DNA of 28,909 bases from a virus: the IMG/VR virus record IMGVR_UViG_3300034121_001222, positions 1 to 28,909 of that record; one strand, given 5' to 3'. Below the pieces are notes generated by a model. That model ran no database searches, was not told where the DNA came from, and saw only the letters and a program-made list of their open reading frames with translations. Shown in pieces: positions 3,031 through 22,457 of the stretch (position 1 is the first letter of the stretch; each line of letters starts with the position of its first letter). The position numbers and the translations under genes are program-made.

Positions 3031-3057
3031 GTTCCGTTTAATTGTTGTACAAATGTA
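3031..3057 (-). promoter_or_regulatory. promoter and leader box of lysis-type operon (TACATTTG-N12-ACGGAAC)
   Basis: On the minus strand a perfect -7 box TACATTTG (3057-3050) is followed 12 nt later by ACGGAAC (3037-3031). The same arrangement recurs at 12227-12201 and, with one -7 mismatch, at 18022-17996. A weak TATG lies 19 nt upstream in place of TTTG. Transcription would start near 3044 and feed the gene beginning at 3001. Confidence 0.75.
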
Positions 3058-3075
3058 TAACAGTTTTCTGTTATA
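3056..3075. promoter_or_regulatory. operator O1, TATAACA-N6-TGTTATA
   Basis: Perfect inverted repeat TATAACAG / CTGTTATA with TTTT between the arms. It overlaps the 5' edge of the minus-strand -7 box, so a bound protein would block the lysis-type promoter. The same operator, with the same spacer except one base, lies at 14319-14346. A degenerate third copy with the identical right side (TTTTCTGTTATA, 3118-3129) lies just before the head operon. Confidence 0.8.
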
Positions 3076-3117: not shown

Positions 3118-3133
3118 TTTTCTGTTATAATTG
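3118..3133 (+). promoter_or_regulatory. half operator plus weak -7 box before the head operon
   Basis: TTTTCTGTTATA (3118-3129) is identical to the right side of O1 and O2; its left arm is degenerate. TATAATTG (3126-3133) matches TAnnTTTG with one mismatch and lies 18 nt before the protease ATG at 3152. This is a plausible start point for head-gene transcription, but weaker than the other promoters. Confidence 0.45.
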
Positions 3134-12324: not shown

Positions 12325-13218
12325 CTAAACATTCCTAAACATCGACACTTTACCATCATTTACGTGCTCAACACGTTCTTCCAGGCTTTCGTAATATTCC
12401 TGCGCCAAGCCTACATAAATTCTAATCAGTTGCTCATGTTCCGGTAAACATTCAACCGGGTAGATTCTCATGCGGTCGGCTATATCCGGAAACTTAGCCT
12501 CAAAATCAAACATATCTTGCACTTCCTGCACAAATTCTGTTGGCATTGTATCGGCCCAGTCATTGCCATCATTGACAAACATTATTTTGGCCTGTTTGAG
12601 CACCTGTTCTTCGGTTGGGTTCATCAATACCCTAATTACTGCACCGCTTTCAATGTTGCCCCCTTCCAATTCGTTTATAAGCATCTTATACCCTCTTATC
12701 TGCCATTCGTACAAAGCCAATTCAGATTCTTCCTGCAGTAACTTTAAGCCAGTAGGATCCCAAACGTTTTTTTGGTCGAACACAAAGCGTTTTACCTTCC
12801 AATCGTAGCCCCTTGTTTTAAGGTAATCATTGCGCATAAACTTCTCAGGTGCCTTTGTGGCAAATTTATAGCCTAAGTACTGCCCAACTTCCCGGATGCT
12901 GCGCTGCTCTAACAAGTTACCCTTTTCAGTGTAGATGTTAGTGAAAGTTTTTTTGAAGCCAAAGCGATCTTTGATAAATTCGTCTTCAATAAATGTCTTA
13001 GCACCTTTGGAAAGCTGCGGAACTAAGATAGTATCACGCTTTGCAATCAGTTCTTGCATCGTTTGTTCTTGTTTGTCGGTGCGCTTGTCTTTGGTAAGCA
13101 GTGTTTCTAAGTCACGCTGCTGGGCTGCGGTCAATATTGCGGCACCCGGCAAAGCTGCCCCGGACATAATGCGTCCGAAGGATGAGCAGCTAAATCTTTT
13201 TACTTGTTCGTTTTTCAT
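12325..13218 (-). CDS. YqaJ-type PD-(D/E)XK exonuclease, RecT partner
   Basis: A 297-residue 5'-3' exonuclease-like protein. The N-terminal 'RFSCSSFGRIMSG' (8-20) is the usual opening of the family. 'EKGNLLEQRSIREVGQYLG' holds the helical acidic residue Glu104. The core reads 'GYDWKVKRFVFDQKNVWD': Asp139, then Asp148-Gln-Lys150, which aligns with the D...DxK metal site. 'YEWQIRGYKMLINELEGG' matches the family's Q-x2-Y/G helix. The third motif is DQK, not the ExK common elsewhere. With RecT in the same operon it forms a two-component exonuclease/annealase for single-strand annealing recombination. Its distance from RecT (one small gene between) is normal. Confidence 0.8.
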   Translation of the reverse strand: MKNEQVKRFSCSSFGRIMSGAALPGAAILTAAQQRDLETLLTKDKRTDKQEQTMQELIAKRDTILVPQLSKGAKTFIEDEFIKDRFGFKKTFTNIYTEKGNLLEQRSIREVGQYLGYKFATKAPEKFMRNDYLKTRGYDWKVKRFVFDQKNVWDPTGLKLLQEESELALYEWQIRGYKMLINELEGGNIESGAVIRVLMNPTEEQVLKQAKIMFVNDGNDWADTMPTEFVQEVQDMFDFEAKFPDIADRMRIYPVECLPEHEQLIRIYVGLAQEYYESLEERVEHVNDGKVSMFRNV

Positions 13219-13230
13219 GATGTTTAGTTT

Positions 13231-13449
13231 TTAATGAACTCTTAAATATCTTGCATACGTTTCAACAACTTCAATATCAATTTGCCTATATTTTTGCAGG
13301 TCGGGCTTTTTTTCTGCGAATGCGGCCCCGTACTTTTTTACCCATTCTCGGTATTCAATCATAAAATCACCAAAAGTCTTGGAATCCATTTGAATAGAAT
13401 AAGCATCAGGCATTATATCAATCCAAAAATCTAATATTTCCTTTATCAT
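13231..13449 (-). CDS. small protein between RecT and exonuclease
   Basis: 72 residues, mostly helical (MIKEILDFWIDIMPDAYSIQ..., 'MIEYREWVKKYGAAFAEKKPDLQKYRQID'). It starts 5 nt after the RecT stop and ends 12 nt before the exonuclease start, so it is in the same transcript. Role unknown; a recombination accessory protein is possible from position only. Confidence 0.7.
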   Translation of the reverse strand: MIKEILDFWIDIMPDAYSIQMDSKTFGDFMIEYREWVKKYGAAFAEKKPDLQKYRQIDIEVVETYARYLRVH

Positions 13450-14318: not shown

Positions 14319-14346
14319 CAAATATAACACTTTTCTGTTATATTTG
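14319..14346. promoter_or_regulatory. divergent promoters with shared operator O2
   Basis: Perfect 11-bp arms CAAATATAACA / TGTTATATTTG with spacer CTTTTC. Each arm contains a -7 box TATATTTG, one on each strand (14339-14346 plus; 14326-14319 minus). One bound dimer would therefore cover both the HTH and RecT promoters. The plus promoter has TATG 20 nt upstream. The core TATAACA-N6-TGTTATA is the same as O1 at 3056-3075. Confidence 0.85.
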
Positions 14347-14382: not shown

Positions 14383-14592
14383 ATGACAACTTATGAAATG
14401 ATTAAAGAACGTGCAAAGTTATCCGGGCTTAGCCTTGTGCAGCTATGTCTTAGGGTAGGCATAGCGCGCGAAACACTGGAGAACTGGAAGGAGAAGGAAC
14501 CCAAGACCCTGGTGATTCTTCAAAAAATAAATGATGTTTTGGCAAATGCAGAAGAGGAAAAGTTCAACCAAACAATCAAACGCAATGACTAA
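14383..14592 (+). CDS. XRE-like HTH regulator, candidate O1/O2 binder
   Basis: A 69-residue single-domain DNA-binding protein: 'MIKERAKLSGLSLVQLCLRVGIARETLENWKEKEPKTLVILQKINDVLANAEEEK' has the five-helix layout of Cro/XRE proteins (L-x2-G-L-S...L....G-I-A-R-x-T-L-x-N-W). Its small size is Cro-like. It is the first plus-strand gene after operator O2, so autoregulation plus control of RecT and, via O1, of the lysis operon is the simplest model. That it binds these operators is inference. It overlaps the HNH gene by 8 nt. Confidence 0.8.
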   Translation: MTTYEMIKERAKLSGLSLVQLCLRVGIARETLENWKEKEPKTLVILQKINDVLANAEEEKFNQTIKRND

Positions 14593-18179: not shown

Positions 18180-19301
18180 ATGCAAGATTTAAAGATTAAA
18201 GAAGAATTTAAAAAGCTGATTCCACCACTCAGCAAAGAAGAATTTGCCCAGCTTGAAACTAACTGCCTTGATGAAGGGATACGTGAGGCCATTGTTACCT
18301 GGAACGGCTTTATTATTGATGGGCACAACCGGCACGAGATTGCCCAGCGTTGGGGCCTTGAATTTAAAACGGAACCTAAGCACTTTGAAAGTGAATCTGA
18401 TGTCAAGGTATGGATGATTAACAACCAGTTTGGTAGAAGGAACCTGAGTAACTATCAAAGAAGCGTTTTGGCTTTAGAACTTGAATCGGTGTTTAGCGAA
18501 AAGGCGAAGGAAAGGATGTTAAGAGGCAACCCTTGCCAAACATTTGACAAGGGTAGAGTTGATGAAAAAATTGGAGATATTGCTAAAGTATCACACGAAA
18601 CAATTAGAAAGGTTAAAAAAATTGAAGCAACCGCTACACCTGAGGTAAAAGAAAAGTTATCAACGGGTGAGCTTTCGATTAACCAAGTTTATCAGGATAT
18701 TAAGAAGGAAGAAAAGAAAGCGGAGCGCATTGAAGTAATTGAACAGCAAATTGAGGATATTGAAAAAGGATTATTACCAAAACTTGAAGGATTGTTTGAT
18801 GTTATTTCCGTCGACCCACCTTGGCCATACGAGGGTGAAAGTAAAAACATAACTTCCTTTGATGCCGTTGGAAGAAGAGTTGCAAATCCTTATCCTGAAA
18901 TGAGCATTGAACAAATCAAAAACATTAATCTTCCTTTGATGGAAAATGCTGTTGTCTTGTTATGGACTACTCACAAGTTTTTGCCTGATGCTTTTGAAAT
19001 ATTAAAAAAGTGGGGGCTTGATTATAAAGCTACTTTGGTGTGGAATAAAGAAAAGATTGGAATGGGGGCATGGTTTAGGATGCAATGTGAGTTTTGTTTA
19101 GTTGGAATTAAAGGGAAGCCATACTGGCAAAATACAAGTTATAGGGATATTTTAAACGAATCGAGACGGGAACATTCAAGGAAGCCTGATACATTCTTTG
19201 AAATGATTGAAAGCGTTACGCTTGGTAGAAGGCTTGAATACTTTAGCAGAGAAAAACGAAACGGATGGGAAGTTTTTGGTAATGATGTAAACAAATTCTG
19301 A
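18180..19301 (+). CDS. ParB-domain / MT-A70 adenine-N6 DNA methyltransferase
   Basis: 373 residues from ATG 18180 (ATG 18168 is an alternative; the GTG at 18150 lies in the leader hairpin). Residues 1-90 are a ParB/Sulfiredoxin-like domain with 'GFIIDGHNRHEIAQRW' (43-58). A HTH-like part follows ('VDEKIGDIAKVSHETIRKVKKIE', 127-149), then a coiled linker. The catalytic MT-A70 domain carries 'VISVDPPWPYEG' (DPPW at 212-215) and 'VVLLWTTHKFLPDAFEILKKWGL'. It probably methylates adenine at a specific DNA site. The nuclease gene follows with a TGATG overlap; self-protection of phage DNA is one role. Confidence 0.9.
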   Translation: MQDLKIKEEFKKLIPPLSKEEFAQLETNCLDEGIREAIVTWNGFIIDGHNRHEIAQRWGLEFKTEPKHFESESDVKVWMINNQFGRRNLSNYQRSVLALELESVFSEKAKERMLRGNPCQTFDKGRVDEKIGDIAKVSHETIRKVKKIEATATPEVKEKLSTGELSINQVYQDIKKEEKKAERIEVIEQQIEDIEKGLLPKLEGLFDVISVDPPWPYEGESKNITSFDAVGRRVANPYPEMSIEQIKNINLPLMENAVVLLWTTHKFLPDAFEILKKWGLDYKATLVWNKEKIGMGAWFRMQCEFCLVGIKGKPYWQNTSYRDILNESRREHSRKPDTFFEMIESVTLGRRLEYFSREKRNGWEVFGNDVNKF

Positions 19302-19768
19302 TGGGTAAATTTGAAACTTCCTTAAAGAAAGGGGAACTTGGTGAACAGATTATTCGCAAATACTTAGAACTAAAAGGATGGATTGTTTACTGCCCATTTA
19401 CAAAAGACAAAGCACATTACTTTGATATGCTTTGCACTTTCAATAAAGAAAAAGTACTTGCAATTGATGTCAAAACAAAAGCAAGGCTAAATAAATGGAA
19501 CGCTCAGGGGATAAACATTAAAAGCTATAACGAATATTTAAATTTTACTGCAACTACCAGCGTACCGTTTTATCTTATTTTTGTTGATGATAAAACAGGG
19601 CATGTTCATTTAGCCGATTTGAATAAGTTAAAAAATCATATTTACCCAAATCAAAATATAATTGCTTGGAATATTGATGATATGCAATTTCTTTTTAAAA
19701 TATCTGAAGAAGAAATAAAGCAGCTTTCAGAATACGACCAAAGGAATTACAATTTTAATCCATTATAA
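19301..19768 (+). CDS. PD-(D/E)XK nuclease-like protein paired with methyltransferase
   Basis: 155 residues. 'KGELGEQIIRKYLELKGWIVY' (helix with Glu12/Glu15), then Asp42 in 'AHYFDMLCTF', then 'KVLAIDVKTKARLNKW' with Asp56-Val-Lys58: the spacing of a PD-(D/E)XK metal site. The remainder 'GINIKSYNEYLNFTATTSVPFYLIFVDDKTGHVHLADL' is a pattern I recognise in phage nuclease-like proteins. Its start overlaps the methyltransferase stop (TGATG). This could be a restriction-type partner or a separate DNA-processing nuclease; specificity cannot be read. Confidence 0.75.
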   Translation: MGKFETSLKKGELGEQIIRKYLELKGWIVYCPFTKDKAHYFDMLCTFNKEKVLAIDVKTKARLNKWNAQGINIKSYNEYLNFTATTSVPFYLIFVDDKTGHVHLADLNKLKNHIYPNQNIIAWNIDDMQFLFKISEEEIKQLSEYDQRNYNFNPL

Positions 19769-19772
19769 AACT

Positions 19773-19803
19773 AAAAAGGCTACCCATACCGGATAGCCTT
19801 TTT
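19773..19803. terminator. bidirectional terminator
   Basis: 10-bp stem AAAAAGGCTA / TAGCCTTTTT with an 11-nt loop, between the convergent nuclease (+) and sigma-factor (-) genes, with A/T tracts on both sides. Confidence 0.9.
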
Positions 19804-19804
19804 T

Positions 19805-20569
19805 TTATATTGATTCTGCAATTAACACTTTTAATTTTTTCAATGCTATCATTTCAATTTGCCTTACACGCTCACTGCTTAATCCTACTTTTTCTGCAAC
19901 ATCTAATAAGCAAAAGTTATTGAAGAATCTCAGGTTTATTATTGATTGTTCACGGTTGGGCAGCTTCTGAATAGCCATATTGATGATGTTGCTTAAATCA
20001 TTCTGCATCGTTATTGAATCTGCATGCAGATCACCAGGCACATCAACATAAGTTTCACCTTCGGAATCTTCAGCACTAAAAGAAACTAACTTTTTCCTAT
20101 TGATATGATTATGCAGATTAACTTTGGTTATTCCTAAACGCTCGGCAGTTTCTGCCAATGTTTCAAATTCTTTCTGATTATTTTCGAGCTTCCAACTAAC
20201 CCTGTGCAATGCGTCGGGTATTCTTAGCGTATCGCATTTTGATTCAATGAATCTGATTATCTCAGCTTGAATTTTTGTGACGGCATAAGAAATAAAGCGA
20301 AAGCCAAAACTACTGTCGTAGCTTCGGGCAGCTTTGATAAGGCCAATGCGGCCTTCTTGTATTAGGTCTAAGATATCAACGTTTGAATGCTGGTACCTTT
20401 TTGCAACGGATATAACAAACAACAGATTGTGATTGATTAGCTGGTCAACTGTTGCGGTCGCTTCTTCTTCCTTGCTCAGTACCGGGTATTTTTTGGCAGT
20501 GCTGTAAAGCTGTGCCATTGCCCCGGTATATTCTGTCATTCGTTTTTCTTTGAATGTGATCTGTTTCAT
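19805..20569 (-). CDS. phage-encoded sigma-70 family factor
   Basis: 254 residues with sigma regions 2-4. Region 2 (about 44-110): 'LINHNLLFVISVAKRYQHSNVDILDLIQEGRIGLIKAARSYDSSFGFRFISYAVTKIQAEIIRFIES', with the classic D-L-I-Q-E-G-x-I-G-L core. Region 3 (about 118-165) follows. Region 4 HTH at about 221-243: 'LLDVAEKVGLSSERVRQIEMIALKKLK'. The melting/-10 segment differs from bacterial primary sigmas (AVTKIQAEI replaces AVWWIRQSI), suggesting other promoters. The ATGA overlap with the QLNLF protein and the zinc-ribbon gene upstream points to a shared transcription role. Confidence 0.92.
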   Translation of the reverse strand: MKQITFKEKRMTEYTGAMAQLYSTAKKYPVLSKEEEATATVDQLINHNLLFVISVAKRYQHSNVDILDLIQEGRIGLIKAARSYDSSFGFRFISYAVTKIQAEIIRFIESKCDTLRIPDALHRVSWKLENNQKEFETLAETAERLGITKVNLHNHINRKKLVSFSAEDSEGETYVDVPGDLHADSITMQNDLSNIINMAIQKLPNREQSIINLRFFNNFCLLDVAEKVGLSSERVRQIEMIALKKLKVLIAESI

Positions 20570-20829
20570 GATTGGCTAAATAGGTTTAATTGGTTCACGT
20601 TTTTTTTATCGCCTGCAAATCCTATGGTTTCGATTTGCGATATAAACATTTCTTTTGAATCTTTATCCAGGTGAAACATTCCTATGACGGTTTTGTCTGC
20701 AAATTTATCTGCTATCAGATCCGCTGCATATTCTTTAGCTTCTTGATAGGATGCAAAGATTTTACCATCATGTTGCTTTTCTTTGCTGTCAATTGCGAAA
20801 ATGATGTATCTAAGGTTTTCACTTTTCAT
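20566..20829 (-). CDS. small protein ending in a clamp-binding motif (QLNLF)
   Basis: An 87-residue protein: beta strand 'LRYIIFAIDS', then 'KIFASYQEAKEYAADLIADKF' (helix), then 'MFISQIETIGF'. The final residues 'NVNQLNLFSQS' carry QLNLF (80-84) in an exposed tail, matching the bacterial sliding-clamp-binding pentapeptide QLxLF. Directly upstream of sigma by ATGA overlap. A clamp-linked co-activator role, like T4 gp33, is a hypothesis; without a structure or search it remains unrecognised. Confidence 0.75.
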   Translation of the reverse strand: MKSENLRYIIFAIDSKEKQHDGKIFASYQEAKEYAADLIADKFADKTVIGMFHLDKDSKEMFISQIETIGFAGDKKNVNQLNLFSQS

Positions 20830-21053
20830 AGTTCTAAAGTTAGTTGGTTAGTTTGGATTTGCGGCCTAAAGTAATCCATTGTCAAAAAGTCATATTGAAA
20901 CCAATTATTAGAAAATTTCTTCCAAAAAGTATCTTGGTTTATTTCCATAATGTTACCGCCGCAATCATTACACTTTGTATGCTTTTTAGGGCAATTGTGA
21001 TAAACAGCTTCACATCCAGGATCCGGGCAAACTTTTATCAGTCCTAATTTCAT
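20826..21053 (-). CDS. zinc-ribbon-like protein ending in a clamp-binding hexapeptide (QLTLEL)
   Basis: A 75-residue protein. Cys9, Cys14, Cys21, Cys28 and Cys31 ('CPDPGCEAVYHNCPKKHTKC' then 'NDCGG') form a probable zinc-binding module, often seen in phage small transcription or DNA-binding proteins. An aromatic middle (DTFWKKFSNNWFQYDFL) follows, and the last six residues are QLTLEL (70-75), an exact match to the QLxLxL clamp-binding hexapeptide. ATGA overlaps on both sides place it in the sigma operon. Confidence 0.78.
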   Translation of the reverse strand: MKLGLIKVCPDPGCEAVYHNCPKKHTKCNDCGGNIMEINQDTFWKKFSNNWFQYDFLTMDYFRPQIQTNQLTLEL

Positions 21054-21517
21054 AAAGTTCTATATTTAGCAAGGTACTTCAATGTTGTTTGTTTCTCATC
21101 GCCATTTGGCCCACCTGCCCATTTGCGTGCAAGTTCTTCATAGGTTGGGTACATTCCATGCTTCTGATGGTGAAGGTGGCAGAAAATACCCATCATGGCC
21201 CAAAATACGGCCGTTGACATTTCGGGGTTGTTCATGTCTGCATGAGTGAAGCCAAGCAAAGATTTTAAACCAGTACCGGTCACGCAAACATCATAGATTC
21301 CGAACCTTCCCCGACCTTGGCCATTCTCGGCAACTGTGCTATCAATTCCACCTGTTTCAATTTGTGCAATTTTGCGGATAAACTCCGAATCACAGGTGTC
21401 CCGATAAACAATAACAGTTTCTTTATGAATCACGTGTGTAGGCTTTAAGCAAAGCAGACCGCCAAGAAGTGCAAAGGCACCTATCTGAATGCTTGTTATA
21501 ATTGTTTCTTTATTCAT
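21050..21517 (-). CDS. membrane-anchored lysozyme/transglycosylase-like protein
   Basis: 155 residues with one N-terminal membrane helix (about 6-25, 'IITSIQIGAFALLGGLLCL') followed by a wall-facing domain. 'FIRKIAQIETGGIDSTVAENGQGRGRFGIYDVCV' has the layout of a transglycosylase/lysozyme active site with Glu54 as the candidate acid and a following 'GRFGIYD' strand, and the late 'YEELARKWAGGPNGDEKQTTLKYLAKY' fits the same family. A signal-anchor (SAR-type) muralytic enzyme is likely. It is a second wall enzyme, separate from the GH73 operon; it could serve lysis or virion entry. Confidence 0.75.
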   Translation of the reverse strand: MNKETIITSIQIGAFALLGGLLCLKPTHVIHKETVIVYRDTCDSEFIRKIAQIETGGIDSTVAENGQGRGRFGIYDVCVTGTGLKSLLGFTHADMNNPEMSTAVFWAMMGIFCHLHHQKHGMYPTYEELARKWAGGPNGDEKQTTLKYLAKYRTL

Positions 21518-21903: not shown

Positions 21904-21982
21904 TTTTAGTTTTATTTAAAGATTATTTAATAATGTAAAACTATATAAAACAAACTGAAACAAAAAACATTTATAGTATTCA

Positions 21983-22014
21983 TTTGTAAATTTGTGCAAA
22001 AAAATGTACTTTTG
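21983..22014 (+). promoter_or_regulatory. promoter of terminase/tail module
   Basis: TTTG (21983-21986), 20 nt spacing, TACTTTTG (22007-22014), with a second -7 match TAAATTTG at 21987-21994. The start ATG at 22032 leaves a very short leader. The opposite strand has only a weak candidate (TTTG-N17-TAGTTTTA) for the sigma operon. Confidence 0.75.
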
Positions 22015-22031
22015 ATAAAAATAAAACAGCT

Positions 22032-22457
22032 ATGCCATACTACGACTGGGTGAAAATGAAAGAAATGGCGATTGAAGCCACAGAAAAGCACAAACTTTTG
22101 TTTATGACAGAGGTTGTTTCTTATTTGCCATGTACCTATTCAGCGTTTTTTAATAACAAAATGAACGAAGATGAAGACATTTTGCAGACCTTGGCGGATA
22201 ATCGGGTAAAAACAAAAGTAAAAATCCGCAAACGCTGGGAAGATTCCGAAAATGTTACTGCTGAGCTTATGCTTTATAAGCTTACTGCCGATGAGGAAGA
22301 GCTTAGAAGGTTGAGCGTTACAAAATCTGAGGTAACGGGGGAAGCTGGTGGCCCAATCAAAACTGAGAACATGAACTTTTCAAAACTTAGCACTGATGAC
22401 CTCAAAAAACTTGAAGAACTTGCTAAACTTGCAGGAGATTCAGAAGGAACTGAATAG
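22032..22457 (+). CDS. terS: terminase small subunit
   Basis: 141 residues: helical N-terminus (MPYYDWVKMKEMAIEATEKH), a middle oligomerisation-like part ('RVKTKVKIRKRWEDSENVTAELMLYKLTADEEELRRLS'), and an acidic C-terminal end ('FSKLSTDDLKKLEELAKLAG') of the kind that contacts the large subunit. It is the first gene of the packaging/tail operon and overlaps the large subunit by 62 nt. The assignment rests largely on position and the tail motif. Confidence 0.8.
   Translation: MPYYDWVKMKEMAIEATEKHKLLFMTEVVSYLPCTYSAFFNNKMNEDEDILQTLADNRVKTKVKIRKRWEDSENVTAELMLYKLTADEEELRRLSVTKSEVTGEAGGPIKTENMNFSKLSTDDLKKLEELAKLAGDSEGTE

Follow-up and report, generated by a model that had tools for sequence, protein, structure and literature searches.

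Proteins that bind the bacterial sliding clamp carry a short motif, QPhi-x-[L/M]-[F/L] or QPhi-x-[L/M]-x-[F/L], and the two lengths bind alike; changing the LGL ending of Pol IV to LF is without effect (PMC11139829). Phage T4 has a small clamp-binding coactivator, gp33 (PMC2988020), phage Twort has a clamp inhibitor, Gp168, that uses another site on the clamp (PMC11139829), and the toxin SocB acts through a normal clamp motif (PMC9690074). Here we examine a phage locus in which the gene of a sigma-70 factor is overlapped with the genes of two small unnamed proteins, p87 and ZR, whose C-terminal peptides, QLNLF and QLTLEL, both fit the published definition of the motif. Judging from the sequences of the two proteins and their relatives, it is likely that the host clamp is their docking site, from which they act on replicating DNA.

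Gene chain and protein families

The window, by which we mean the whole stretch of DNA analyzed, is 28,909 nt (28.9 kb) of IMG/VR record IMGVR_UViG_3300034121_001222, a virus fragment, and the host of this phage probably belongs to the Bacteroidota. On its minus strand lie the genes of a sigma-70 family sigma factor of 254 aa with regions 2 and 4 and a region 3-like HTH (19805-20569), of the 87-aa p87 (20566-20829) and of the 75-aa zinc-ribbon protein ZR (20826-21053). These three open reading frames with their 4-bp ATGA overlaps are just as the initial annotation had described them, and so are the two predicted clamp-binding motifs, QLNLF at p87 residues 80-84 (20578-20592, minus strand), with three residues beyond it to the C terminus, and QLTLEL as the last six residues of ZR (20829-20846, minus strand). 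The proposal that the genes form a three-gene unit holds for sigma, p87 and ZR but not in its extent, because a further minus-strand gene (21050-21517) is joined to ZR by the same ATGA overlap. The 155-aa product of this gene has an N-terminal membrane segment and is lysozyme-like by eye, it matched nothing in the databases searched, and a relative of it also adjoins ZR in L039 and L040. After the sigma gene, a terminator-like hairpin, AAAAGGCTACCC-ATACC-GGATAGCCTTTTTTTT (19774-19807), separates the chain from a convergent plus-strand gene (19301-19768).

Searches with p87 gave no match of weight in Pfam, NCBIfam or PHROGs and nothing among PDB sequences. Its relatives are IMG/VR proteins and, at 48% identity, a protein of the complete Microcystis phage Mea-Yong924-1. 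ZR is likewise not named by Pfam, NCBIfam or PHROGs, had zero matches in a search of reference phages and gave weak unrelated matches only against PDB sequences. We found no report of either family in the open-access literature. The structure model of p87 (pLDDT 75) has a predicted beta-beta-alpha-beta-beta core followed by a flexible C-terminal tail; its best VIA-align score, Z 7.0, is to photosystem I PsaD, a likeness that we set aside for function since the arrangement is a common one. The zinc ribbon of ZR (model pLDDT 80, best VIA-align Z 2.5) is apparent in alignments, where C9, C14, H19, C28 and C31 are invariant and NxWFQYD is conserved. Foldseek returned nothing at E <= 0.001 for either model.

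C-terminal motifs and their neighborhoods

Every distinct p87 relative that was read to its end has QxxLF near the C terminus, in the variants QLNLF, QLELF, QLQLF, QLSLF, QLRLF and QSKLF; one copy (L049) leaves its contig after QLSL, before the F position. The QSKLF form belongs to a single group (L020, L050, L052 and L053), and as its second residue is not aliphatic, binding may be weak there. Conservation also extends to KKNxNQ, immediately ahead of the p87 motif. In ZR the motif takes the form QL[TSKM]L(x)[LFI]; 13 of 21 distinct relatives have it, preceded by a linker that varies in sequence and length. It is missing in the other eight (L017, L018, L019, L035, L039, L040, L056 and L058), which indicates that part of the family can do without it. 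Most forms in ZR have six residues (QLTLEL, QLSLDL, QLSLDF, QLKLDL, QLTLNL, QLTLDI, QLTLEF and QLSLSF) and two have five (QLTLF in L034 and QLMLF in L036); given that the literature finds the five- and six-residue forms equivalent, this swap is the behavior due from a clamp-binding peptide. In both families the motif is kept in relatives while its flanks drift, and the codons of its Q and L residues differ synonymously. The motifs lie in exposed flexible segments of the models, and the low pLDDT of the tails (46 in p87, 52-64 in ZR) is as expected for a flexible docking peptide.

We also asked how often such tails arise by chance. Of the 745 distinct proteins of the fetched loci, 17 have a strict QLxLF or QLxLxL among their last 10 residues, a count that includes the selected p87 and ZR families, compared to 0.14 in shuffled proteins. 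Grouping 1,097 proteins by family, we saw C-terminal QLxLF in six families, a number that takes in the selected p87 and ZR relatives although four of the six are neither, and any other order of the same letters occurs in at most one. The motifs are thus beyond chance, in agreement with the initial annotation. The same forms are used by the Bacteroidota themselves: among bacterial genomes whose prophage regions contain ZR, QLKLEF is the end of DinB in a Flavobacteriaceae MAG and QISLF occurs in the DinB of Limnovirga, and MutS has QLSLF (a Sphingobacteriaceae MAG) or QLSIF (Limnovirga). A bacterial-type clamp gene (PF02768) was found in none of 35 phage records, the window being itself a fragment, which would leave the clamp of the host as the target. 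Conservation in homologues, the interchange of the two forms in ZR and the matching forms in DinB and MutS strongly support the clamp-binding part of the initial annotation, and the tails of p87 and ZR probably bind host DnaN. A further QLNLF stands near the end of a plus-strand ORF of the window (12935-13234) that is antisense to an exonuclease-like gene (12325-13218), where it is probably due to chance.

Tails of this type are not confined to p87 and ZR. Near ZR, an N6/N4 DNA methylase (L029, 6112-6762) has the tail QLSIF (QLSIFEI) and a Dam-type methylase (L017, 6628-7506) the tail QISLNI (QQISLNI); the presence of two unrelated methyltransferases with clamp-type tails suggests that methylation may be coupled to replication. 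A PAPS-reductase-like protein (PAPS_reduct, phrog_424; L028, 8758-9549) ends in QLKLF two genes before ZR, a KilA-N protein in L056 has a QLKLSL tail, and small unnamed proteins end in QLSLF (L036), QLKLF (L048), QMNLF (L051) and QSKLF (L057). The one in L048, a locus where p87 comes after a DnaC-like loader, has 70 aa and no relative outside its own contig. Summed over the extra clamp-tailed genes, the distance to p87 or ZR is 17 genes compared to 64 expected, a closeness not reached in any of 20,000 shuffles, in a test that rests on eight genes of which the L035 entry is doubtful. In nine reference phages (eight of Bacteroidota and the Microcystis phage) one of 520 proteins has a strict tail, apparently a spurious hydrophobic ORF, and in four phages of other hosts none of 266 does. 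We therefore rejected clamp tails as a general trait of Bacteroidota phages; the pattern is instead concentrated around the p87 and ZR families. Lysis-type genes also often adjoin p87 and ZR, namely a FlgJ-like glucosaminidase (cluster 22) and lysozyme-like proteins (clusters 37 and 71), and their presence beside p87 and ZR in several phages does not point to replication. Such neighbors were seen at 1781-2323 and 21050-21517 of the window and in L046, L047, L005 and L034.

These results are best explained by docking. The flexible C-terminal peptide of p87 or ZR would grip the sliding clamp of the host, DnaN, the clamp would carry both proteins to DNA under replication, and their folded parts, the zinc ribbon of ZR and the beta-beta-alpha-beta-beta domain of p87, would then act on that DNA; the timing of this action, and what the domains might do there, belong to the same conditional model. 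Their genes would belong to a loosely defined group of accessory genes with clamp tails, among them those of DNA methyltransferases, and Bacteroidota phages may exchange these genes and keep them close together.

The main rival to docking is inhibition, in which p87 and ZR would competitively fill the clamp pocket and so shut off or redirect host replication. Their small size, their tight pocket consensus and the fact that they are phage-encoded are in keeping with this, SocB is a precedent for a toxin with a normal motif, and Gp168 is one for a phage inhibitor, although at a different site. The phages, however, apparently rely on the host clamp themselves, and to block it would harm their own replication. 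Furthermore, methyltransferases in the same neighborhoods have the same tails, which fits recruitment better than inhibition, and among the PDB sequences searched p87 has no match and ZR only weak, unrelated ones. We consider inhibition unlikely.

The sigma factor and late transcription

The initial annotation went beyond clamp binding and proposed a convergent system like that of T4, in which p87 and/or ZR link RNA polymerase, under the direction of the phage sigma, to the host clamp, so that late genes are switched on only where DNA is replicating. The sigma factor itself is well supported (Pfam Sigma70_r2 9.7e-15 and Sigma70_r4 9.1e-16, above curated cut-offs; phrog_351 1.9e-40), and the adjacency of sigma, p87 and ZR with their ATGA overlaps, together with the gp33 precedent, speaks for such a device. 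When the source records of the loci were searched for Sigma70 regions 2 and 4, only G024, G026 and G027 had a sigma-70 besides near copies of the window (G032, G017 and G018), and most carriers of p87 or ZR have no sigma-70 match. Motif-bearing p87 or ZR occurs without such a match in four records of 32-39 kb (G016, G025, G029 and G030) and in a complete 40-kb phage that has p87 (W01). The presence of intact motifs in phages with no recognizable sigma-70 gene largely matches an outcome that the initial annotation had named as refuting its proposal. Where sigma is present the association is also incomplete: G024 has a sigma factor but a ZR lacking the motif and no p87, and ZR was not found in G026 or G027.

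A weak residual link comes from two relatives, G026 and G027, in which p87 is placed 0.85 kb upstream of a sigma gene of the same strand; in G026 the two are separated by a 71-aa gene and a glucosaminidase gene. The 34.6-kb contig G027 has p87 sequence at both ends (3-245 and 34513-34641), so that, though classed as linear, it is probably a complete circular genome with the p87/sigma order of G026. Also in favor of the T4-like proposal, an ECF-like sigma homologue is found elsewhere in G007 and G009; in G003 it is joined to a glycosyltransferase-like protein, and in G010 stops break its reading frame. The ECF-like match in G039 is a weak one. At 13947-15647 of L048 a protein of 566 aa is ECF-like in its N-terminal part, the rest being glycosyltransferase-like by eye.

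The sigma factor of the window has no clamp peptide at its C terminus, which is KKLKVLIAESI (relatives end in HDLLAQ, HDLLTQ or SALAL), and it differs in this from gp55. The promoter element of the Bacteroidota type is TAnnTTTG. An element of this type, TACTTTTG, is located within 21904-22032 of the window, just upstream of the terminase operon (22032 onward), and this operon therefore need not depend on a phage sigma. Another sequence, TTTTCTGTTATA, occurs in three exact copies, each just upstream of plus-strand genes (at 3131, and the HTH gene at 14383). The sites concerned are 3056-3075, where there is a perfect palindrome, TATAACAG-TTTT-CTGTTATA, 3118-3129 and 14331-14342. We rejected TTTTCTGTTATA as a promoter for the phage sigma because it forms a palindrome, adjoins an HTH gene and is shared by G010, a record that lacks an intact sigma gene; with the palindrome, it looks like a repressor operator.

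By sequence search across these phages, p87 and ZR neither require nor track the sigma factor of the window, and the sigma gene is best regarded as a lineage-specific companion and not as something that their function requires. Thus, of the convergent system proposed at first, the predicted clamp binding stands and the coupling to late transcription is left unsupported, the clamp-tailed neighbors elsewhere being non-transcription proteins. We regard the T4-like coupling as improbable and as the least favored of the three mechanisms, and even in the lineage of the window it is quite doubtful that sigma-70, p87 and ZR would make up a convergent counterpart of the T4 system, with late transcription tied to the host clamp by two clamp peptides of the bacterial type. 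That the motifs are due to chance or serve some other contact is very improbable, for although eight ZR relatives lack the motif and the conserved KKNxNQ could give the p87 tail another use, the letter-permutation control, the recurrence in independent families, the exchange in ZR of exactly the two known forms, the synonymous codon changes and the forms in DinB and MutS all argue against it.

Comparison with known systems

If docking on the host clamp is correct, two unnamed protein families gain a concrete candidate partner, DnaN. The occurrence of unrelated clamp-tailed genes near each other suggests that some Bacteroidota phages may gather replication-fork accessory proteins through a shared docking site of the host, in which case the tail pattern would be a way to find such proteins by sequence alone. 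The clamp-tailed methyltransferases, in turn, could serve to test for a link between replication and the modification of phage DNA.

The clamp inhibitors Gp168 of Twort and SocB of Caulobacter are, as p87 and ZR are predicted to be, small proteins that bind the bacterial clamp. No sequence relation between them and p87 or ZR was found among the PDB sequences searched, and Gp168 occupies the DNA channel of the clamp and not the motif pocket. Late transcription in T4 uses the gp33/gp55/gp45 system, and in systems of this type the coactivator also binds the beta flap of RNA polymerase. As at our locus, one phage there encodes both a sigma-family protein and a small protein that binds the clamp (by prediction here), and the clamp peptides are C-terminal; the T4 system differs in the peptide of gp55, in having a clamp of its own where the bacterial-type model found none in our records, and in that p87 and ZR mostly occur without sigma-70. 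The methyltransferases of L017 and L029 recall eukaryotic Dnmt1, which is recruited to new DNA by PCNA through a clamp peptide, although the phage enzymes have a bacterial-type motif and their recruitment is putative. Pol IV (DinB, with its C-terminal QLVLGL), Pol V (QLNLF), MutS and Hda, finally, present the same five- or six-residue consensus on a flexible tail. Unlike them, p87 and ZR are short proteins of unnamed families and have no polymerase or repair domain, yet the QLNLF of p87 is the motif of E. coli Pol V letter for letter. Members of a small cluster of phage genes with clamp tails, p87 and ZR are two new families carrying an already known docking motif.
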